Assembly: GCA_945874665.1 (NCBI GenBank)
Contig: CAMCHJ010000011.1
Location: forward strand, 1-61,673
Direction of reading: 5' to 3'
Length of the DNA stretch: 61,673 nt
From: Chitinophaga pinensis
GTDB taxonomy: Bacteria; Bacteroidota; Bacteroidia; UBA7662
Part shown: piece after piece, positions 19,763 through 61,673 of the stretch
Numbering within the stretch: position 1 is the first letter of the stretch
How the letters are laid out: each line of letters begins with the position of its first letter
Made by a program: the position numbers and the translations under genes
Notes under the pieces: model-generated
Database searches by the model: none
What the model was told of the DNA's origin: nothing
Seen by the model: only the letters and a program-made list of their open reading frames with translations

Positions 19763-21343
19763 TTATTGGATAACTAATCTGCTTACTGATGTCTGGCTGC
19801 CAGTGATTTCGAGCAGGTACATGCCCTCACTTAAACCAGTTAACGACAGCTCAATTTCTTGCAAGCCACCCTCTAGTTGTACATTTTTTTCGAGCATGAG
19901 TCGGCCCTGCAAATCGCGCAAGCGAATGGTTTGCGTTTGGCCGTTTTTTGCCTTTAGTTGCATGCGCACCCAATTTTTAGCAGGATTTGGATAGGTGCGT
20001 ACGATTGTCAAGTCGGGCTCGTTGATAGCAGCAGCGATGCCATTTAAGCCAAGTGTGAAGTTGACTTGGAGGGTGGGATTGCTATTGGTGAGGCTAAACA
20101 TATAGGTAGTAGAAGGCACGCCGAATAGTTCCACGCGCATGCCATAATTGCCAAAAGGCAAGTTGGTGAAATTGAAACTACCATCGTTGCGACTGTAGAT
20201 CACTTTCAGGAGATTTCCATTCACATTTTGTAAATAAACAGGCATGCCAGCCATGCCCACGCTGCCAGTAAATGGCAAGCCGTTGAATACACCACCGCCA
20301 GCGCCACCGCTGCCGCCACCTGTGCCAGTGGCTGCTTGTAAGGTGATGTTGCGTACAATGGTGTTGGAACTTGGAACGCTGTTGAAGGGTGTTGAGGCCA
20401 TCCAAGTGGTTACGTTGTCGTGGTAAGTAGGCGCATAGCTGGCTGCATTTCCGTTTAACAAGCGTACTAGCACGGCATATGGACCAGCGTTTATGGTGCT
20501 GAAGTAAAACTGCGCCATGCCGCTTGAGTCAGCAAAAAGCATGGTATCGATGGGCGTCCAGATGTTGTTTTGAACCGTAATAAGGATGGCCTGGAGGCTA
20601 TCTAAGCCAGTGGTTGAAGGGGTGTAGCCCGATACGTTTCCGGAGATGATGGTAGGGACGATGCTAGGACTTGTTTGCAGTTGAATGTTTAAGCCATTAT
20701 AAACGCCTGAGCTGAAGGCAGTGACGTGGGTAGCTTGGAACTGCAGGGTAGTGTTGCCATAAAAAGTGGTATAGTAAGCGCTATTGCTTGAATTTGCGCT
20801 GATGATGTAAACACCTAAGTTTCGAACTTGAAAGCCGTAATACATAAAGCCCATGCCCATGGTGTCGATCACGTTAAAGGATGTATCGAGCACTGGGCCA
20901 AGGAGACTCATCCGGTAAAGCGTCATAAGAACCGTGTCGCCCAAAGCCGTGGGTGATACTTGACCGTTTAGCCAAATGGATGCAGGGGGTGGGTTGGTGC
21001 CGCCTGAACAGTTGAACGAGTGACTGGTACTGTAACTTGGAGCAGAAAAGGTATCAACTACGCTCATGGTGAGGCCGCCACAGTTTGTGGTTGCAATCAC
21101 CACGCCAGGTCCTTGGCTCGAGGAGATTGTATAATTACTGTAAAAGTTTCCAATAGAATCGGTGAAAAGCGAGTCAAAAACCACACTGCTGGGGCTAAAC
21201 TGGATTTGCAGAAGAATTAACTGGTTGGGTATGCCTCCTAAAAGACCGTTGCTAACCGTTCCTTGCACTGTGAGCGTTTGTGCTTGACCAGCAAACGAAG
21301 TCAGTAAAAATAGAACGAGTGTGTAAATAAGTTTTTTCATCAT
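19763..21343 (-). CDS. Secreted protein with T9SS C-terminal sorting domain
   Basis: The likely start is the paired ATG at 21343/21340, giving MMKKLIYTLVLFLLTSFAGQAQ, a clear signal peptide; a longer frame to 21463 adds 40 residues with no signal-like character and is rejected. The 526-residue product is low in charge and rich in Ser, Thr, Asn and Gly, with beta-sandwich-like stretches and a Gly-rich linker (GTGGGSGGAGGG). It ends with a type A sorting domain: YPNPAKNWVRMQL, LRDLQGRLMLEK and GLSEGMYLLEI. It should cross the inner membrane by Sec and the outer membrane by the type IX system. No enzymatic motif is recognised. It lies 86 bases downstream of the VWA gene. Confidence 0.85.
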   Translation of the reverse strand: MMKKLIYTLVLFLLTSFAGQAQTLTVQGTVSNGLLGGIPNQLILLQIQFSPSSVVFDSLFTDSIGNFYSNYTISSSQGPGVVIATTNCGGLTMSVVDTFSAPSYSTSHSFNCSGGTNPPPASIWLNGQVSPTALGDTVLMTLYRMSLLGPVLDTSFNVIDTMGMGFMYYGFQVRNLGVYIISANSSNSAYYTTFYGNTTLQFQATHVTAFSSGVYNGLNIQLQTSPSIVPTIISGNVSGYTPSTTGLDSLQAILITVQNNIWTPIDTMLFADSSGMAQFYFSTINAGPYAVLVRLLNGNAASYAPTYHDNVTTWMASTPFNSVPSSNTIVRNITLQAATGTGGGSGGAGGGVFNGLPFTGSVGMAGMPVYLQNVNGNLLKVIYSRNDGSFNFTNLPFGNYGMRVELFGVPSTTYMFSLTNSNPTLQVNFTLGLNGIAAAINEPDLTIVRTYPNPAKNWVRMQLKAKNGQTQTIRLRDLQGRLMLEKNVQLEGGLQEIELSLTGLSEGMYLLEITGSQTSVSRLVIQ

Positions 21344-21429
21344 AACATGTTTTATACTCCATCTACGGAGATGCACAGCAAAAGGTTGGGTAAGATAGTG
21401 AATAAAGTAAAGTTGTAAGCTTATTTGTG

Positions 21430-23529
21430 TCAGTAGCCTCCCCCATAGCGGCGCATGAACCATTCAAGTGATAAAAGTAGCCCAATAAGGAGCATTAATC
21501 CTTCTAAGCTGATCAATTCGCGTATACGCATCTCATAATACACAACTGGCTTAAGGCTTTCATTTGCTTGCAAGAGATCGAAGAGTTTGGCTTGATTGGA
21601 AAGGGCTAGCATCTCGCCTCCCGATAGGGCCGCCATACTGGCCAAGAGCGCGTGGTTGGCTACCGTATTGGTTTTTTCGAGGTCAAGAGCCGTCACCACA
21701 AAGCTGCCATTGGCTTGGAAGCTGGCACCAGCCAGTTGGGTTTTGGCTAGGTAGGAGTACGTTCCTGGTGGCAAAGCACCAACATTGAGGAAATACTGCT
21801 GTTGCGTTCGTCCTAAAGTAAAGTTGAATTTTTGGTTGTTTTCGTCGGTGATGAACAAGCGAATTTCAGGGTCGTTCACCGCTTCAAAGTTCTGGTTGTA
21901 TAACTCGGCTTCGAACAAAACATCCTCTTGCTCTGGGTAAAGCTTGCGGTTAGTGCGGACTTGAAAAGGTCGTTTGTCTTGCTTAACCGTTAGAAACTGC
22001 ACGGTTTTGCGAATTAGCTCTGCACCCACATCGGTTGTTGAGCGATCAGCGGCTTGGGCTAATTGCCAGCGCCAGAGTCCTTCTGCCGCCAAAATTGCCA
22101 TGCGCGGATTGTTATTGGGGGCATAGGACAGCAACGGCATGTCGGTATGGAGGTTGCCGATACGCTGAAAGAGGAGGGGGGTAGCTTGGGGACTCAAACG
22201 GAAGTCGCCAAAGGGTGCGTCTAAGGGGGGCATGCTACCTGCTTTTTCTTGAACCGCACTTTCCACATTAAACAAACGGAAGGCTGCATTTAAATCTGCT
22301 TGTACTTTGTTGATGCCGCCAATCTTACTGCGCACCTCTAAAATATTTTGGGCACGGTTAAATTGCTGCAGATTGGTTTGACTACCCAGGATGTACCAAA
22401 CAGGCGTTTGTAATTTGTTTACCGCTTGCAGCCATTGTGTGGCATTCAAAGCAGGACTTGGCAGCTGATGTAAGATTACCAAATCGGGTTTTTCTGTGAT
22501 TTGCACGGCCTGGCTCGCCAGTTTTACTTGTACTTGGTGCTGTGGATTGATTTCAAGAGCCTGTTTGATGGCGCTGATGTCGGGATGCGGCGCATGGGCT
22601 ACGAGCAAAATTTGTGTGCGCTCATCGATCACCTCAATAAAAATATCTTTGCTGTTGTTTACGCCTGCGCCCAAAGCTTCTCCAGCAATTTGTGCCGTAA
22701 TGCGATATCGGTTAATTCCGGCCTTTTCAGCCCCAGTTACGAATTGTAAGGTTGTGAAAAAGCGCTCTTTGGTAATGGTGACTTCTTCTTTTGCCAATAG
22801 CTTCACCCCATCGGCGCCAACTGCTTCTAGTTTAATGGTAGCTTTTTTACCTTGCAAACGACTCGCTTCCAAATCAGCCAAAATGGTAAAGTCGGAGTTC
22901 ACATAAACCACCTGGTTAGCCCTTAAAGCTTTAATGGCAAAATCCTGCCGCACGGTAGTATCCCCCAAAGGCACGGTATACACAGGCACACCCAGCTTTT
23001 CAACCAAAGCACCAGGCTCAAACCCGCGGTTAAAAATGCCGTCACTCAGGAGCACCACCGCCGCTAATTGACTCCCACTGTAGCGGTCTTCAATTTGTTG
23101 TAGCAAACCACTGATGTTGGTCGATTTGGCGCTGAAATCATGCTTCAAACTATCGTCCAAGCTCGCTCCAAAGCTCATCAGCCGCAATTCGTGCTGCTCC
23201 GAAAGTTCGTTTATTGCGTTTGCGGCAAAAGCAGACAGAGACGCTGCGATAGTGGCACTGTCGGTTTGGTGCAACAGCGACTGGCTATTGTCGAAAGCCA
23301 CGATCACCAGCGGTTTTTCAGTGACTTTTTGTTCAGATTTTAGGTAGGGATTAAAAAGCAGTAGCACCAACAACGCCACGACACTTCCTCTGAAGGCAGC
23401 CATCGGATAAACGTACCAAGCTTGGCTGAATTTGTTGCCGCTGCGGTAATACAGCAAAAGGGCATACAGCAAACCAAGAAGGATACATCCCAAAAGGTAC
23501 CAAGACGAAACGGCGGTGAGAAGGCTCAT
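21430..23529 (-). CDS. Membrane-anchored von Willebrand A-type protein
   Basis: A 699-residue protein. Two membrane helices lie at about residues 8-27 and 46-62 and one near the C-terminus (about 673-691), so most of the chain is extracytoplasmic. A VWA-like fold starts at about residue 73, with a MIDAS-type DNSQS (80-84) and a later VVLLSDGIFNRG strand. The central part (about 315-420) resembles the class I amidotransferase-like fold seen in such proteins, without an obvious catalytic Cys. Similar large VWA membrane proteins occur in Bacteroidota near stress or aerotolerance (Bat-like) genes, but none is adjacent here. Ligand and role are unknown. fabG lies 15 bases upstream. Confidence 0.7.
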   Translation of the reverse strand: MSLLTAVSSWYLLGCILLGLLYALLLYYRSGNKFSQAWYVYPMAAFRGSVVALLVLLLFNPYLKSEQKVTEKPLVIVAFDNSQSLLHQTDSATIAASLSAFAANAINELSEQHELRLMSFGASLDDSLKHDFSAKSTNISGLLQQIEDRYSGSQLAAVVLLSDGIFNRGFEPGALVEKLGVPVYTVPLGDTTVRQDFAIKALRANQVVYVNSDFTILADLEASRLQGKKATIKLEAVGADGVKLLAKEEVTITKERFFTTLQFVTGAEKAGINRYRITAQIAGEALGAGVNNSKDIFIEVIDERTQILLVAHAPHPDISAIKQALEINPQHQVQVKLASQAVQITEKPDLVILHQLPSPALNATQWLQAVNKLQTPVWYILGSQTNLQQFNRAQNILEVRSKIGGINKVQADLNAAFRLFNVESAVQEKAGSMPPLDAPFGDFRLSPQATPLLFQRIGNLHTDMPLLSYAPNNNPRMAILAAEGLWRWQLAQAADRSTTDVGAELIRKTVQFLTVKQDKRPFQVRTNRKLYPEQEDVLFEAELYNQNFEAVNDPEIRLFITDENNQKFNFTLGRTQQQYFLNVGALPPGTYSYLAKTQLAGASFQANGSFVVTALDLEKTNTVANHALLASMAALSGGEMLALSNQAKLFDLLQANESLKPVVYYEMRIRELISLEGLMLLIGLLLSLEWFMRRYGGGY

Positions 23530-53466: not shown

Positions 53467-56400
53467 TTATTGCTTCACAAAGCGCTTTACCACGTTAAAG
53501 TCGCGGCCTTGCAACTGCAGCAGGTAAATGCCAGTAGGCCACTGACCAAGTTGCAGCAATTCCGTATTGTTTTCTTGCGAAGGCGAAAAACGGGCAAGCG
53601 CTTGTCCCATGGTGTTCCGCAATACCATTTGCTCGACCTGTAAATCTCCCCATTCGATTTGAATGGCGGCTTGTGCAGGATTGGGATACAGCTTGATCTG
53701 TGCCGCAGCCAGTTCTTGCACGCTCACGCCTTGGATAATGGTGACGGCGTTGTTGAGCACAAAAGTATCGGTGCAACTGGCGTTGCTGGCATAAATGGTG
53801 ATGGTATAAGTGCCCTGCTGGGTATATGCTTTGGTTGGAGCAAAGCCCGTAGCGGTAGTGCCATCCCCAAAATCCCATAGATAAGTAGTGGCGAACAGAC
53901 TTAAGTTGATCAACGGCAGGTTGTTGCCGGCGTTGATGGTGCTGTTGGCGAGGCGAAAATCTGCTACCGGTGCATTTGGCACATTTACCGTGAGGGCAAA
54001 AGTGTCGCTTCCCAAGCTATTATAGCCAATAAGTTGCACCAAATAGCTGCCACTTACCAAGCGCTGGGTGGGATTGTTGGTGGTTGAGGTGAGGGTAGAT
54101 CCAAATTTCCAGAGGATGCTGTCGGCGTTAAAAAGGTTCGATTGGAAAGCCACATCTACCGAGTCACAGCCGCTTTGCATATTGAAGCTAAAATTCACGA
54201 TAGGTTTCATTTGGCTGATGAGCAGCTGGATATCGTCGAGGTAGAGGTTATTGCCGTTCTGGTTGATGCCCTCAAAGCGCAAAACAATGTCGCCAGTGCC
54301 GCGGTAGCTGCTCAAATCTACCACGTCTTGGCGCCAGTGGAGGGGATTCACGGCAGTGAATGCAGTGGCTTGGGGCGCTACTGTAGCTAAACTATCACCG
54401 GTTTTGAGGTAAACAGGCGTCCAATTGCTGCCGCAGTCGGTGCTTACCGAAATGCGTAGGCCGTCTTGACTGCTGCTGGTTTTTTGCGCATAAGCCACGC
54501 CAAAGCGCAATTGGAAAATGCCACTGTCGGGCGCAATAAAACGTTGCGTTTCTAGGTAATCGCGGGCATCTAGATCAGGATAATTGAAAAAGTTCATAAA
54601 GGCCGAGCGACTGCCACGCGGTCTGCCGCTCGTAGCGGTGATGCCCCAGCCAATATTACCATCGGGATTAAGCGCAAAAAGCTGCGATTGGGATAAGTTA
54701 GGGGACTCAAAGCCTTCAATCAGCGGCGGGTTAACCAGGCTGCGCTTGTTGATGATGCGCGTCATTTGGTTGTCGAAGGTATCGATTTCGGCCAAGGCGC
54801 TGTCGAGCAGGATGCGAAAGGTGAACGAAACGCTCGGACTGCCAGCTGGGAAAGCCACCGTAGGCAATTGCAGCGTATCGGCTTGGTTGGTAGCCAAACT
54901 GCCGGTCCATGCAAAAGATGTAAACGGCCCGCTGCTGCCCATGCGGTAGGAAATGGTGGCTGCGCTGATGGTTGAATCGCCTAAATTAAGGAAGCTGATG
55001 CGTGGACTGATGCTGTCGCCGCACACGATGCTTTGAGGTGCCACGAGTGCTTGGGCGCGCACATTCATAGCACCGTAATTTGGTCGAGCCGGAATGTGGT
55101 TTTGTGCGAGCAAATAGTTAAAAGCCGCATCTAAATTCATCAAACCGTTGCCATAAACATTGTCTTCGCCCGGATCACCCATATCGGTAGCCGAGTAATA
55201 AATTGCGCGCAGGATGGCGCTGCCCGACAAATAGGGAAAGGCTTCTTTGAGTAATAAAACCGCGCCGGCTACATGTGGTGCTGCCATGGAGGTGCCTGTG
55301 AGACTTGCGTAGCCCGAGGCGCCACTAGCCGAGCGCACATTGGTGCCGGGAGCAACCACTTCGGGTTTGATATTGAGTTCTGGGTTGGGACTGATGCAGA
55401 TGGACGGGCCGCGGCTGCTGCTGTTGGCTATGGGAAAGCCAGGTACTGCACCTTGGATATTGCCCGTGCAAAACACATTTACTTCATTGGTATTCACGTT
55501 TTTGGGCGAGGTGATGGTGGAGGTGCCTGGGCCGCTGTTACCCGCTGAAAACACCACCGCTACGCCTGCCGCTTCGAGGGCATTGAGTATCGGCACTACA
55601 GAACTGCTACATTCGGCTGTACTTGCAGTACCGCCCCAGCTGTTGTTGATCACATCAGGAACGTCGTTGGTTGTATTCAGATTGCCATCTGGATTAAGCG
55701 CCCATTGAAAAGCACCCGTAGTACCACCTGAACCAGCGCAAAGCGAGCCTGCGGCAATCCATTGGGCGTTAAAGGCCAAGCCAATGGTGTCGAAAGTGCT
55801 GAGTTGCAGTCCAACCATGGTGCCAATGGTGTGCGTGCCGTGGTTGTTGCCGTTGCTGCAGGCGGTGGGAGAGGTGCCCGGACCAAACCAAGCGTGGTTG
55901 GCGGGTACAAAGTTGCCGCGCCAGCGACTGCTGATGCTGGGGTGTTGTAGGGTAACGCCGTTATCGCTGTTCATGCCCAAGCGGCCGCGACCGGTGTAAT
56001 CACGGGACCAAAGGGCGGGGGCTTTTACAACGCGCAAGCCGATTTCCGAGCCATTGGGGGCGTTTGGACTGTTGGGCGACTCCACTACAGGGTCAATCAC
56101 GTGGTACTGGTCCATGTCTTCTTCCATAACCTCAATGCCATTCGTGCTGTTTACCAAGGCCAAAATCAAGGCAGGTTTGGCTTCAATCACCAATAAATTG
56201 GCAATCCAATAGGGGATGATGTACTTGAGGTGGTTAGGCATTTCGCGCTCAAGCTGCTCAATTTTGCTGATCCAGGCGGGTTGCGTGGCTGCAGCTTTTT
56301 CGAAGAGCAGGGTGGTGGTTATGCGCACTCGATCATTGAAATGCGTCTTTTGAAGGTCAAAAGCCTGGCCAAGAGAATCAACATTGATGCGGTCGGACAA

Positions 56401-56541
56401 TAAAATCCGTACGCGATAAAAGGTATTGGTATGGTAAGGATTGGTTAAATTTTCATGTAAAGCTGGCTCAATACTGCTCATTTGGGCGGAGGCGAGTCCG
56501 TGCACCAAGAGCGCACTGAAAATGGCTATTAACTTCTTCAT
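53467..56541 (-). CDS. Secreted S8-family (subtilisin-like) protease with T9SS sorting domain
   Basis: A 1024-residue exocellular serine protease. The signal peptide is MKKLIAIFSALLVHGLASAQ (1-20), followed by a propeptide-like region (about 35-145). The peptidase domain (about 160-470) has Asp193 in NSDNGV, His234 in NNHGTH, Asn335 in SAGNSG and Ser418 in GTSMAAPH. The Asp motif lacks the usual VAVIDTGV context. Next come a CARDB-like region, a MAM-like module near 600-770 (GDIVLRFEGI, LYLDDIQLL) and two PKD-type domains (TYLWDFGDGTT). The C-terminus is a type A T9SS sorting domain (LYPNPAQAAIQIEW, GIYLLQLQGR). Confidence 0.92.
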   Translation of the reverse strand: MKKLIAIFSALLVHGLASAQMSSIEPALHENLTNPYHTNTFYRVRILLSDRINVDSLGQAFDLQKTHFNDRVRITTTLLFEKAAATQPAWISKIEQLEREMPNHLKYIIPYWIANLLVIEAKPALILALVNSTNGIEVMEEDMDQYHVIDPVVESPNSPNAPNGSEIGLRVVKAPALWSRDYTGRGRLGMNSDNGVTLQHPSISSRWRGNFVPANHAWFGPGTSPTACSNGNNHGTHTIGTMVGLQLSTFDTIGLAFNAQWIAAGSLCAGSGGTTGAFQWALNPDGNLNTTNDVPDVINNSWGGTASTAECSSSVVPILNALEAAGVAVVFSAGNSGPGTSTITSPKNVNTNEVNVFCTGNIQGAVPGFPIANSSSRGPSICISPNPELNIKPEVVAPGTNVRSASGASGYASLTGTSMAAPHVAGAVLLLKEAFPYLSGSAILRAIYYSATDMGDPGEDNVYGNGLMNLDAAFNYLLAQNHIPARPNYGAMNVRAQALVAPQSIVCGDSISPRISFLNLGDSTISAATISYRMGSSGPFTSFAWTGSLATNQADTLQLPTVAFPAGSPSVSFTFRILLDSALAEIDTFDNQMTRIINKRSLVNPPLIEGFESPNLSQSQLFALNPDGNIGWGITATSGRPRGSRSAFMNFFNYPDLDARDYLETQRFIAPDSGIFQLRFGVAYAQKTSSSQDGLRISVSTDCGSNWTPVYLKTGDSLATVAPQATAFTAVNPLHWRQDVVDLSSYRGTGDIVLRFEGINQNGNNLYLDDIQLLISQMKPIVNFSFNMQSGCDSVDVAFQSNLFNADSILWKFGSTLTSTTNNPTQRLVSGSYLVQLIGYNSLGSDTFALTVNVPNAPVADFRLANSTINAGNNLPLINLSLFATTYLWDFGDGTTATGFAPTKAYTQQGTYTITIYASNASCTDTFVLNNAVTIIQGVSVQELAAAQIKLYPNPAQAAIQIEWGDLQVEQMVLRNTMGQALARFSPSQENNTELLQLGQWPTGIYLLQLQGRDFNVVKRFVKQ

Positions 56542-57056
56542 GTAGCTGATAAATTTGTTGAAATACGAACGTATTAAGTTTTTTCAAATAATGTTCATTC
56601 ACCAATATAGTAGATGAAAATGACATCTATACGCAGTGCGCCTCTAATTAAGGAAGAAAAGGCATTTGAGTGGAGTGTTTTCTGTGGTGCCGGCAAGTTT
56701 TCAAACGCTGATCCAATGGAGCGATACTATATTTACGTATGGGTGATGTAGGCCCTGGGGCCCTATTTTTGAGCAAAATTGGTTGGGTTGAAGTGGTTTT
56801 GGTGGAGAAATGTCCCTTCTAAGTGAATAAGAAAAACCGAGTACAAATTTGGCTCTTGGCCTTTCAGATAAGGCATGTTTTCTTAAAATTAAGCTGGCTT
56901 TCTGGCTGTACAGGGCCTCTTGTGGCTTGAGGGCGAACTGGTTGCGGCATATGGAGGGAAGAGGTGGTTTTTTTGTTAATGTTTTGAATAATCTTCATAA
57001 AGACTTGCGACTTAAAATCACAATCAGTATTATTGAGGTTCTATTAAACTTGTTGT
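56542..57056. other. 515-bp intergenic region between divergent secreted-protein genes
   Basis: This is the upstream region for both the subtilase gene (-) and the giant gene at 57057 (+). TAAACTTG at 57045-57052 is a near-match to a -7 box but sits only 4 bases before the ATG and lacks a partner. On the minus strand TACGTTCG near 56574 is a weak match. A GC-rich near-palindrome around GGCCCTGGGGCCC is at about 56752-56764. The open frame 56849-57169 has no coding character. No RNA gene or repeat is recognised. Confidence 0.6.
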
Positions 57057-60000
57057 ATGAAATCAGTATTAATCAAATTATTAATTTTCACATCCCTGCT
57101 TCTAGGTGCTGGGAACGCCTCTGCGCAACAGTACTGTACCTCAGGTGCAACATCTACTGCCGACTCTAAAATCGACAGTGTGATAGTTGCTGGTATTGTG
57201 AGTGGAAGTTCGGCTTCAAACTGTGAAACTTACACAGACAATACCGCGCTGAGCGGCACGGTTATCCAAGGCTCTAGCTACGACATCCGGGTTGTTTCAG
57301 GCACTTGTGGTGGTACGTACACCAGGATGTTCAAGATTTTTGTGGATTGGAACAATGATGGCACGTTTGATCAAGCCATCGATTCGATTGCAACCCTTGG
57401 GCCAACGGCACTTGGCGTGGCTTCAGAGGCCTTTACTCACAACTTTACAGTGCCTTTTGGTATTGCGCCGGGTGCCAAGCGCCTTCGTGTGGTGATGTGC
57501 GAAACTTCGACCCCCGCAACGTTTTCAGCTTGTGGAACGTTTACTTGGGGCGAAACAGAGGACTATACGCTAAACGTTTTGGGTGCCACTGGATTAGATG
57601 CTGGCGTGTCATCTTTGGTTTCTCCAGCAGCACCTTTAACAGGAGGTGCCACCAGTCAAGTGGTTATGAATGTTGGTAATTTCAGGGCGGATCCTGTGGT
57701 GAGCGGAACAGTTGGTTATCAAATTGGAAACAATCCTCCAGTTACAGAAGCCTGGACAGGTTCTATTTTACAGGGTTTAACAGCCACGCATACATTTGCT
57801 ACGCCAGTTACCCTGCCTACAAGTGGTGTATTTACGATACGTACTTGGTTTACAAACGCTAATGGTTTAGGAGTTGACTTAAATCCTGCGAACGATACCT
57901 TGGTGTCGACGCGTTGTATCAGCTTAGCCTCCGGATTATATACTGTAGGTGCAAGTGCTACTGCCAGTTATCCTAGCATACCAGCAGCCTTATCGGCATT
58001 GGCATGCGGTGGTATTGCTGGGAGTGTAACTTTCGCCATCGAGCCAGGTACCTATTATGGCAGTTATACATTGGGTTCTATCATTGGAGCATCAACAACC
58101 AATCAGATTACCTTTACAAGCACTACGGGCTTGGCTGCTGATGTTGTGCTGATTCACGATACGAACGCTAGTGTAACCAATAAAACTATTTTTGCGGTAA
58201 GTAATATTCAGGGTGTAACCTTTAATGCGTTAACCTTCCGCAGAACTGAAAACCAAGCTTCTGGCGTATTTGCAAATCTGCTTGCAACCAATGCAGATAA
58301 TCTGTCAGTGTTGTCTTGCGTATTTGATGAAACGATTCCGCTGGCAAACGTTAACTTCAACAGCCATGGTATTCGTATTGACAATGGTAGCTCTGCGCTG
58401 ATTACAACCAATACCTTTACTGGTTTCCAGCAATCTATCTTTTTAACTGGTCCAGTTACGAACAACAATTATGAAGAGTTTAACAATATCAGCGCGAATA
58501 TTATCAACAACTTCAGAAATGGCATCAGCCTTACCAATCAATCGTTAGCCGTCGTGGCGAGCAATGATATCCAAAATGCTGCTGTACTAAATACAGGTTA
58601 TGGTATTTCGGCTTCAAGGGTTGTGGGTATTGATGTATCGGGTAACAAAATCACTGGTTCAATAGGTACTGGTGGTATTTTTGTTTCAAACGCTAACGAC
58701 AGTATTGGTTTAACCAACAAAGTAGTTAACAATGTAATTTCAGGTAGCGTTGTTTCAACAAGTGGCTTCTCTAGTGTATTTGGCATCAATTTGAGCGGTT
58801 CTTTTAGCGCTACAGCTACGGCACCAGTTAATCCTAAGGATGCCATTGAGTTGAACTACAACACCATTAACATTACCATCGACATGCCGACTACTTCAAC
58901 TTTTGGTTTGTTGAATGTAACTGGTGGAAGCACCACAACACCGGCTTGGAATTCTGTTAAACTAATTAACAACCATGTTGTAGGTACAGGAACCGGTGCA
59001 GGTCTAGGAACGAACTCAGTAGCTGCCTTGTTCGCTCACGATTCGATTGTAGGCGTATTGACCAGTAATCACAACAACTACTTTTTGTCGAATGCCTCAG
59101 GTGTGCCCGTCTTTAACAATTTGATTAGAAATAGCACTGGACCAGTATTGTTTCCAACTGTGGCTGCCTGGACAACCGCTTCAACGCATGATGCAGCGTC
59201 TATTTCTGCCAACCCAGGCTTTACATCTACCAATTTACCGATACCAACAGCAGGTGGAGTTAACAACCTTGGAACACCAGTTGCAACGGTACCTTCTGAT
59301 ATCTTAGGGATTGCGCGTAGCGCCACCACCCCAGACATCGGTGCGTATGAATTTACACCTGCACCGTTTGACTTGGCCGCGATTGGCATTGTTACGCAAG
59401 GCGGTTGTTCTGGTCCAAACCAGCCTATTTCGGTGCGCGTGCGCAACGTGGGCACTTCAACTTGGAATTTCGCAACGAATGCACTTGTGATCAATGTGAA
59501 TGTAGCAGGTGCTAGCACACAAACCTTTAGCTTAACCGTAAATGCAGACAGTATACAGGTAGACAGTGCTCGTAATTATTTGGTAACGAGTGCAGGTAAT
59601 TTCTCTGCGGGTGGTGTACACGTTATTGCAGCTGAATTGGTGTCAAGTGTTGATGGCAATGGATTAAACAATACAACTGCCAGGAATTTGACGATTGTTC
59701 AGCCTTTGGCTGCGCCATATACAGAAGCATTTAATGGTACAGCAATACCTAATAACATCGTGTCGGACATGACTTGGACTAACAATATTGGTGTAGGACA
59801 AACAGGCGGTATGCGTCGCAATGTCTTTTCAACCCTTGTAGGTAATATCAGAACGCCCATTATTGGCCCATTAGATACAGGTGCTGTTTTTGAATTCGAT
59901 TATAAAGTAACAGATTGGTCAAGTTGGGTGTGGCCGGGTGTGCCTTCGCTTTTGAGTCCAGTTGACACCATTAAAATCGAAATGTCTACCAACTGCGGTC

Positions 60001-61673
60001 AATCCTTCAGCTTGGTTGATTGGATAGATGGCAACACACACATCTCTAGCAGTTCTTTTGCTACGAAGCGTGTGAATTTGGCAGCCTATGCAGGACAGCA
60101 AGTAATTATGCGCATGAGCTTCCGCCAGTTATCAGGCATTGATGTGTGGTTTGATTTAGACAACTTCCGAATTTTCACGCCATCGCCTGTTGACATGGGT
60201 GTATTGAGCATCTTGGCGCCTAACAGTGGTTGTGCATTGACTGCAGCCGATACCGTACGGGTGCGTGTTGTGAATTACGGCACCGTATCTCAAACCAACA
60301 TTCCTGTTGCCTATACCATCAACGGCGGTACACCAGTAAGTGCTACCATTCCCAATACAATACTTCCAGGTGACTCCTTGAGTTATTCCTTCGCTGTACC
60401 TGCTAACTTAGGTGCCGTTGGAACCTATACCTTGAGGGCTTTCACAAGTGCTGGCAATGATGGAGATTCAACGAATGATGCTGCTGTAAAAACCGTTATG
60501 AATTATCCGGTAATCAGCACTTTGCCTTATCTAGAAAACTTTGAAGGTGCTGCTACTGGCTGGTTTGCTGGTGGAACAAACAGCACCTGGGCTTTGGGTA
60601 CTCCGGCTGCAAGCATCATTAATGCTGCTGCGTCAGGTACAAAAGCTTGGGCTACCAACTTAACCGGTAACTATGTTGCCAATGAACGCAGCTGGATTCA
60701 GTCACCTTGCTTCGACCTCAGTGGTCCAGGTTTGGTGTCGCCTGAAGTGCGTTTCAAACTTTGGTATGAAGTAGGTCAGTTTGACGGTGGTGCCAACGTG
60801 CAATTTAGTACCAATGGCGGTGCTACTTGGCAGGTACTTGGTACTACTACATCGGGCATTCAAAACTGGTACAACTCAGCCGCTATCCAAGGCTCAGGAA
60901 CGCCACTTCAGCCAGGCTGGATTGGCAATACTGGTAGCACCACTTTCCCGGGTTCAGGTGGTTATGTAGATGTAGCTCATAGTATCGCATCCTTGATTGG
61001 TCAGTCGAGCGTTATTTTCCGCGTCGCCTTCTCTACTTCTGGATTCCCAACCTTGCGTAATGGTGTAGCTGTTGACGATTTCCAAGTATTGCAGCCACTC
61101 GATCCAGTGATTACTTCAGTGGATACGCTTGACAATAACTGTGCTGTTGGCGTGCGCACCGTGAGTGCAGCTGTCTTTAATTTTAGACCTATTACCTCAA
61201 CTACCCTCAACTACCGGTTGGCACCAGCTGCAGCCATTGCAACTGCACCTATGACTTTCAGTAGCACAACTAACCGTTGGTCAGGAAGTATCCCTGCAGG
61301 TACCGTAAATACGCGTATCAGCTACTTCGTAACCACTGTGGATAGTGCTGGTTTGTCAGATACATCAGGTGTATTGAGCTACATAGATGCATATTTACAG
61401 CCGAATGCAGGCAATGACACTTCCATAACGCAAGGTGACTCAGCCATTTTACGTGGTAGAGGTGGTGTTTTCTTGGGTACTGTTGGTACTGGTACGGTAG
61501 TAAACACAACAACATCCTACCCATCACCTTATGGTGGATTCTATTGGGGCGCCCGTCATCAGTTTTTGATTTTGGCGTCTGAATTAGCAGCCGCAGGTAT
61601 CAATCCTGGTTTGTTGAGCTCACTTGCGTTTGATGTAAGTCAAGCTGCAGGCAGCCCACTTACCGATTTTGAA
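57057..61673 (+). CDS. Giant secreted GEVED / beta-helix protein (3' end beyond window)
   Basis: An uninterrupted frame of 1539 codons from ATG 57057 to the window edge, with no stop seen. MKSVLIKLLIFTSLLLGAGN ASAQ is a signal peptide (1-24). A GEVED domain follows, with FVDWNNDGTFDQ (about 95-106) and GETEDY (165-170), then a CARDB-like region (about 180-280). A long right-handed beta-helix-like part (about 285-700) has repeated N-G/N-x-I-S-N-N patterns and a cap ending PDIGAYEF. Next are CARDB-like and MAM-like modules (LDNFRIF, LENFEGAATGWF), and near the end the YPSPYGGFYWGARHQFL module. It is probably a T9SS surface protein, but the sorting domain would lie outside the window. Confidence 0.85.
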   Translation, partial: MKSVLIKLLIFTSLLLGAGNASAQQYCTSGATSTADSKIDSVIVAGIVSGSSASNCETYTDNTALSGTVIQGSSYDIRVVSGTCGGTYTRMFKIFVDWNNDGTFDQAIDSIATLGPTALGVASEAFTHNFTVPFGIAPGAKRLRVVMCETSTPATFSACGTFTWGETEDYTLNVLGATGLDAGVSSLVSPAAPLTGGATSQVVMNVGNFRADPVVSGTVGYQIGNNPPVTEAWTGSILQGLTATHTFATPVTLPTSGVFTIRTWFTNANGLGVDLNPANDTLVSTRCISLASGLYTVGASATASYPSIPAALSALACGGIAGSVTFAIEPGTYYGSYTLGSIIGASTTNQITFTSTTGLAADVVLIHDTNASVTNKTIFAVSNIQGVTFNALTFRRTENQASGVFANLLATNADNLSVLSCVFDETIPLANVNFNSHGIRIDNGSSALITTNTFTGFQQSIFLTGPVTNNNYEEFNNISANIINNFRNGISLTNQSLAVVASNDIQNAAVLNTGYGISASRVVGIDVSGNKITGSIGTGGIFVSNANDSIGLTNKVVNNVISGSVVSTSGFSSVFGINLSGSFSATATAPVNPKDAIELNYNTINITIDMPTTSTFGLLNVTGGSTTTPAWNSVKLINNHVVGTGTGAGLGTNSVAALFAHDSIVGVLTSNHNNYFLSNASGVPVFNNLIRNSTGPVLFPTVAAWTTASTHDAASISANPGFTSTNLPIPTAGGVNNLGTPVATVPSDILGIARSATTPDIGAYEFTPAPFDLAAIGIVTQGGCSGPNQPISVRVRNVGTSTWNFATNALVINVNVAGASTQTFSLTVNADSIQVDSARNYLVTSAGNFSAGGVHVIAAELVSSVDGNGLNNTTARNLTIVQPLAAPYTEAFNGTAIPNNIVSDMTWTNNIGVGQTGGMRRNVFSTLVGNIRTPIIGPLDTGAVFEFDYKVTDWSSWVWPGVPSLLSPVDTIKIEMSTNCGQSFSLVDWIDGNTHISSSSFATKRVNLAAYAGQQVIMRMSFRQLSGIDVWFDLDNFRIFTPSPVDMGVLSILAPNSGCALTAADTVRVRVVNYGTVSQTNIPVAYTINGGTPVSATIPNTILPGDSLSYSFAVPANLGAVGTYTLRAFTSAGNDGDSTNDAAVKTVMNYPVISTLPYLENFEGAATGWFAGGTNSTWALGTPAASIINAAASGTKAWATNLTGNYVANERSWIQSPCFDLSGPGLVSPEVRFKLWYEVGQFDGGANVQFSTNGGATWQVLGTTTSGIQNWYNSAAIQGSGTPLQPGWIGNTGSTTFPGSGGYVDVAHSIASLIGQSSVIFRVAFSTSGFPTLRNGVAVDDFQVLQPLDPVITSVDTLDNNCAVGVRTVSAAVFNFRPITSTTLNYRLAPAAAIATAPMTFSSTTNRWSGSIPAGTVNTRISYFVTTVDSAGLSDTSGVLSYIDAYLQPNAGNDTSITQGDSAILRGRGGVFLGTVGTGTVVNTTTSYPSPYGGFYWGARHQFLILASELAAAGINPGLLSSLAFDVSQAAGSPLTDFE

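Follow-up and report, generated by a model that had tools for sequence, protein, structure and literature searches.

At the end of a 61,673-base stretch of DNA from Chitinophaga pinensis (contig C11 of the assembly, hereafter the window), a gene at 57057..61673 on the plus strand encodes the N-terminal 1539 residues of a large modular protein. We read it, with moderate confidence, as a domain-shuffled surface protein exported by the type IX secretion system (T9SS). It is probably no enzyme but an adhesin that binds glycans or surfaces, and its overall shape is most likely that of a rod whose tips can be exchanged. In the mechanism that we propose, a Sec signal peptide would bring the protein into the periplasm, the T9SS would carry it over the outer membrane via a C-terminal type A sorting domain, and a PorU-type sortase should then remove this signal, leaving the protein either anchored on the outside of the cell or set free. 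Small beta-sandwich units (CARDB and MAM-like) would space a GEVED head, a rigid beta-helix rod and, near the C terminus, an aromatic module (ARO) that resembles a carbohydrate-binding module (CBM). Binding of glycans or surface polymers would fall to the head and the ARO module, possibly with a contribution from the groove of the beta-helix, and head exchange in evolution would alter the specificity of this adhesin or glycan-capturing surface protein.

The open reading frame (ORF) starts with the ATG at 57057, from which all residue numbers are counted, and runs for 1539 codons with no stop up to the window edge, as a sequence-only reading of this DNA had described; that reading also rightly called it the longest of the window, the runner-up being the 1431-aa RNA polymerase beta'. 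Because the window is the complete contig (61673 bases, in a genome of 2.29 Mb and 35 contigs), the gene was cut by the assembly and not by the choice of window. In a DNA search of its own genome, the last 117 bases of the gene were matched at 95% where contig C13 ends. Aligned with each other, C11:61555-61673 and C13:58988-59106 share an overlap of 119 bases, in which 7 positions mismatch and 1 amino acid in 39 is changed. The continuation lies in frame on the minus strand of C13 (C13:57920-59104, equal to L006:9921-11105) and ends in a stop; 39 of its 394 residues are common to the C11 part, which gives an expected full protein of about 1894 aa (1539 + 394 - 39). A same-genus genome, G001, has an intact orthologue of 1896 aa that is 79% identical to the window part across residues 17-1539, so the ORF is not a chance frame, and the C13 part matches this orthologue at 84.5% across orthologue residues 1503-1896. 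Upstream of the G001 gene stand an S8 protease and a gene that looks desaturase-like by its sequence, as on C11, and downstream stand Tgt, a glycosyltransferase and RsmG, as on C13. The join is secure, since G001 has the intact gene between the flanking genes of both contigs, and the C13 piece is the continuation of the window gene. That the window gene is instead a truncated or misassembled fragment, with the C13 piece coming from another paralogue, is extremely improbable: the overlap is indeed not exact, the contig ends differing at 7 of 119 positions, but the same-genus genome has a single uninterrupted gene set between the flanks of the two contigs in their expected order, the second-best DNA match to the gene within its own genome reaches just 68%, and the mismatches alter a single residue in 39, as between strains. 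They look like strain variation in a metagenome assembly, which may have broken the contig.

The completed protein is probably exported by the T9SS. Its N terminus resembles a typical Sec signal peptide as judged by eye (residues 1-23, with an AxA-type cleavage site, 57057..57125; like all the segments of the protein given below, on the plus strand). The sequence-only reading had expected a T9SS sorting domain beyond position 61673, and one lies at the end of the C13 continuation, where residues 318-392/394 match the type A model TIGR04183 at 26.9 bits (cut-off 23); the Pfam tail model (Por_Secre_tail) scores 26.4 bits there, just under its cut-off of 27. The genome encodes the T9SS machinery, with SprA (2603 bits), a PorU-type sortase (1335 bits) and GldM (370 bits) all above their cut-offs, and contains 72 TIGR04183 matches at E values up to 0.001. 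From these features we infer that the window protein is in fact secreted and anchored. Elsewhere in the window, a 566-aa protein (19763..21463, minus strand) bears a T9SS type A tail at 41.5 bits.

The central part, residues 287-768 (57915..59360), was assigned by modelling and fold comparison, and its final segment (719-766) is choice-of-anchor-Q-like, with a choice_anch_Q score of 20.2 bits that falls below the cut-off of 25. Structure prediction of residues 177-800 from 8 sequences gave a mean predicted local distance difference test score (pLDDT) of 73.6, most blocks exceeding 85 up to about model residue 390 and values dropping below 50 at the end. When residues ~291-718 of this model were compared with VIA-align, the mannuronan epimerase AlgE6 was matched at Z 32.5 (root-mean-square deviation [rmsd] 2.9, 331 aligned) and the polysaccharide lyase RbmB at Z 32.3, with inulin lyases and PL6 alginate lyases also among the best matches, and PfbA of Streptococcus pneumoniae was matched at Z 29.9 (rmsd 3.3, 336 aligned). 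The model, as a predicted fold, confirms that these residues form a right-handed beta-helix and bears out the long beta-helix-like part of the sequence-only reading; the helix sequence profile run against solved structures reached a best E value of just 0.0096. In some family members, at L006, L007, L020, L030 and L038, a second, divergent beta-helix match lies behind the first (for example at residues 918-1429 of the L007 frame).

Ahead of the helix stands the N-terminal head (residues 24-176, 57126..57584), in which the GEVED domain (PF20009) claimed earlier is found at residues 92-173 with 62.8 bits, over a gathering score of 24.4. Only about 68 residues separate the signal peptide from the GEVED match, and a Pfam-A scan of the window protein to E 0.1 returned GEVED and CARDB only, with no NR2-like ligand-binding domain ahead of GEVED, although Pfam presumably contains an NR2 model. 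An NCBIfam match to ThermolysLepto (39.1 bits, cut-off 1350) was rejected, as it pairs the GEVED region with the end of that model and does not mark a thermolysin. CARDB-like unit 1 (residues 178-286, 57588..57914) has no sequence match on its own and is recognised by its predicted fold, which matches the CARDB domain of PF1109 (3idu) with template-modelling (TM) scores of 0.64-0.67 of the target over 111 columns. Unit 2 (residues 771-880, 59367..59696) is a linker delimited by its own-sequence profile alone and named by analogy, and unit 3 (residues 1041-1143, 60177..60485) scores 15.6 bits with Pfam CARDB (PF07705, residues 1065-1135), below the cut-off of 22.7, with the C13 fragment at 22.6 bits and one paralogue at 23.4. 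Of the two MAM-like units, the one at residues 1149-1349 (60501..61103) is identified by way of homologues, since InhA-like_MAM (PF20773) is hit by 6 of the 8 aligned with it (best E value 1.3e-11), its own Pfam score not being significant, whereas the unit at residues 876-1042 (59682..60182), delimited by an own-sequence profile, gave no convincing family match in searches of family models; the MAM-like profile reached a best E value of 0.0025 against solved structures. We regard the CARDB and MAM modules as probably real, partly under family cut-offs; the repeats proposed from the sequence are supported by fold for the first CARDB-like unit and by homology for the second MAM-like one, but neither by the window's own CARDB score nor, for the first MAM-like unit, by any convincing family. 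Between the MAM-like units and the ARO module, a unit of about 120 residues (1346-1465, 61092..61451) is conserved in relatives and has no family match in Pfam, the one collection searched for it.

The aromatic stretch YPSPYGGFYWGARHQFL, singled out as a module in the sequence-only reading, is the start of a real, conserved ARO module, of which the window contains the first 65 residues (61479..61673) and contig C13 the rest; the assignment comes from alignment and a predicted CBM-like beta-sandwich fold. In an alignment of 16 relatives (A3) the stretch is conserved as YPxPYGxFYWGARHQ, and the positions invariant in 21 copies comprise two Cys, one Asp, one Arg and several Asn. Members of the ARO alignment gave only chance-level matches and no family in NCBIfam and Pfam, and the A3 profile gave no match among solved structures at E values up to 1. 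Since the window contains just 65 residues of the module, the fold was modelled on the same-genus orthologue, with a confident core (pLDDT blocks mostly above 80 for about residues 61-170) and poor ends. The model resembles the CBM-like N-terminal domains of CspAcXE and PbeAcXE (7toj and 7tog; Z 11.8, rmsd 3.1-3.2, 155-156 aligned), the lectin-like domain of Cwp84 (Z 11.3) and, at Z 10.4-11.5, several domains from the tails and baseplates of phages. Its top match among viral models is a protein of an uncultured phage (E 6.9e-10). The module is present in 38 of 296 genomes of the phylum sample, including the one studied here.

Relatives keep the core and differ at the front. Of 40 genomes, 36 contain a match to the window protein, and a CARDB-beta-helix profile is matched nearly in full (over at least about 480 of its 627 positions) in 14 of the 17 genomes of the family. 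Both counts include the genome studied here, which alone encodes five proteins with a near-complete helix (on C11, C7 and C32, and two on C13). Across the phylum, some match to this profile turns up in 82 of the 296 genomes sampled, nearly all among the matches listed being partial. Whereas the CARDB-beta-helix core is kept, the N-terminal heads differ: among 19 labelled rows, 6 have a GEVED head, 7 an ARO-like head (two of them, L029 and L030_1122, labelled by weak similarity) and 6 a third head of about 190 residues, common to six family proteins (L006:480-6407, L007:8343-14336, L022-L024 and L030:6961-12960), which stayed unnamed when the proteins of L006 and L007 were scanned with Pfam and NCBIfam.

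A tree of the core was built from helices of at least 400 residues with E values under 1e-30, for which 32 matches were reduced to 23 by duplicate removal; L026 was left out as too short, and 4 of the 23 rows are without a head label, L011, L016 and L019 being cut before the head and L031 having its helix begin within 39 residues. The tree, which has some long branches and leaves 4 forks open, cannot account for the 19 labelled rows with fewer than 6 changes of head; the figure falls to 4 when the two weak labels are dropped, and the minimum for three states is 2. When labels were shuffled, the ARO label alone gave 166/500, which is not significant, and the three head labels together were clustered (1/200). 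At one fork, with support of 100/99, L007 from the genome studied here, with the third head and an ARO module near its C terminus, is sister to L038, in which ARO is the head. At another, with support of only 90/91, the window protein is joined to its tree neighbour L010: the units follow in the same order in both, but L010 begins with an ARO head, and the window protein has a GEVED front and ARO near its end. Members of the family also lie in clusters: where C13 ends, two full ones accompany the C-terminal fragment (L006/L029), and G005 has three full ones directly after one another (L030, G005:C4:214000-233500).

The adhesin reading, which agrees with the adhesin or polysaccharide-binding protein of the sequence-only reading and is the best supported one, draws on two described precedents. 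The paper that defines GEVED reports, in the portion available to us, that adhesins arise by the shuffling of binding and stalk domains (PMC10952558), and the available text on PfbA describes a pneumococcal adhesin whose beta-helix resembles those of carbohydrate-active enzymes (CAZymes) without evident catalytic machinery (PMC3718772), so that, on this account, a CAZyme-like helix can serve an adhesin without evident catalysis. Several points weigh against our reading. The same portion of the GEVED paper calls this domain a stalk domain and not a proven binder (PMC10952558). For the AcXE domains that ARO resembles, the part of the report available to us states that they have no clear grouping among known CBM families and that the authors saw no pocket matching that of a true CBM (PMC9105624), which makes "carbohydrate-binding" a weak label even for the template, and the Foldseek TM-scores of ARO are modest, 0.35-0.40 of the query in the top rows other than plant lectins. 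Most high-scoring matches of the beta-helix are enzymes or phage tailspikes, so the protein may have a catalytic role. All 16 relatives found come from metagenome-assembled genomes and hence carry no known biology, and ligand, secretion and surface location are so far inferences.

A polysaccharide-active enzyme, with the beta-helix as lyase, epimerase or glycosidase and ARO and the other units as accessory binders, would account for AlgE6, RbmB, the inulin lyases and the PL6 alginate lyases as top structural matches, for charged columns of weaker, 60-85% conservation over the 23 family helices, and for a paralogue's match to the mannuronan epimerase AlgG, which we rejected as a family assignment at 25.7 bits, far under the cut-off of 700. 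Yet Asn, Gly and hydrophobic residues make up most of the helix-body columns with a conservation of 85% or more, just one of these columns is charged (an Asp in 22 of 23 members, ORF residue 595), and the window protein matches no CAZyme family in Pfam or NCBIfam at E values up to 0.1. Judged from the aligned sequences, this pattern favours a structural or binding role, even if single members may be enzymes, and we think an enzyme unlikely. That the protein is released or forms part of a matrix, building a biofilm or sheath without acting as a ligand-binding adhesin, strikes us as quite unlikely: this genome and a relative each encode several similar long proteins close to one another, as would suit a structural coat, and T9SS effectors can also reach the medium, according to the accessible part of one source (PMC10202324), but heads that vary between near relatives suit ligand specificity better than a uniform scaffold. 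Building on the adhesin reading, we can put forward a bolder proposal, though a tentative and somewhat doubtful one, in which ARO would be an undescribed carbohydrate-binding family across Bacteroidota and the core a chassis that swaps GEVED, ARO and third heads, providing about five surface proteins per cell with different glycan specificities and perhaps a part in phage encounters.

On its other side the gene has a divergent neighbour, a separate gene for an S8 subtilase with PKD and a T9SS type A tail (53467..56541, minus strand), assigned by profile scans and part of the conserved upstream flank. In G001 an ORF that looks dihydroorotase-like by its sequence features (L028:4560-5906) sits between the S8 protease and the orthologue; it is not at the equivalent place in the window (56541-57057), and its best match in the genome studied here, at 49%, is C13:17308-18624.

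Most large exported proteins of Bacteroidota from the environment lack annotation, and one of them is here completed across an assembly gap and its parts named. The description of this gene as the least characterised of the window holds in part, GEVED, CARDB, MAM and T9SS tails being known modules; the protein, though itself uncharacterised, belongs to a familiar kind of bacterial surface protein, and its most interesting parts are the unnamed ARO module and the differing heads. A conserved module with no Pfam or NCBIfam family now has a predicted fold and a known spread, and different N-terminal heads on a common core make a simple binding experiment possible.

Titles and opening lines of abstracts on GEVED, T9SS with beta-helices and adhesins, FjoAcXE, Cwp84, choice-of-anchor, PfbA and SprB contained no description of this protein family, and the closest known systems each share a part of it. 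With AlgE6, AlgE4 and RbmB it has in common the predicted right-handed beta-helix over residues ~291-718, at 12-16% identity; those proteins are enzymes, which the window protein probably is not. The CBM-like domain of FjoAcXE-type acetyl xylan esterases, as far as the available text describes it (PMC9105624), shares the predicted fold of ARO at 8-11% identity, but no SGNH esterase domain was recognised beside ARO. PfbA, in the description available to us (PMC3718772), is likewise a surface adhesin with a beta-helix akin to carbohydrate-active enzymes; it differs in its length of 708 residues, in an identity of 14% and in a described architecture without GEVED, MAM or ARO. T9SS type A cargo proteins have the same C-terminal sorting domain above cut-off, the signal peptide (here judged by eye) and T9SS genes in the genome, the window protein being set apart by a sorting domain that lies on a second contig and a Pfam tail score just below cut-off. 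Finally, the window protein differs from the CshA-type fibrillar adhesins, as portrayed in the accessible part of their description (PMC10952558), in having no NR2 domain before GEVED in its Pfam-A scan, in its T9SS type A signal and in its beta-helix core, while it shares with them GEVED, a long modular build, a C-terminal anchor or sorting signal and the shuffling of domains.

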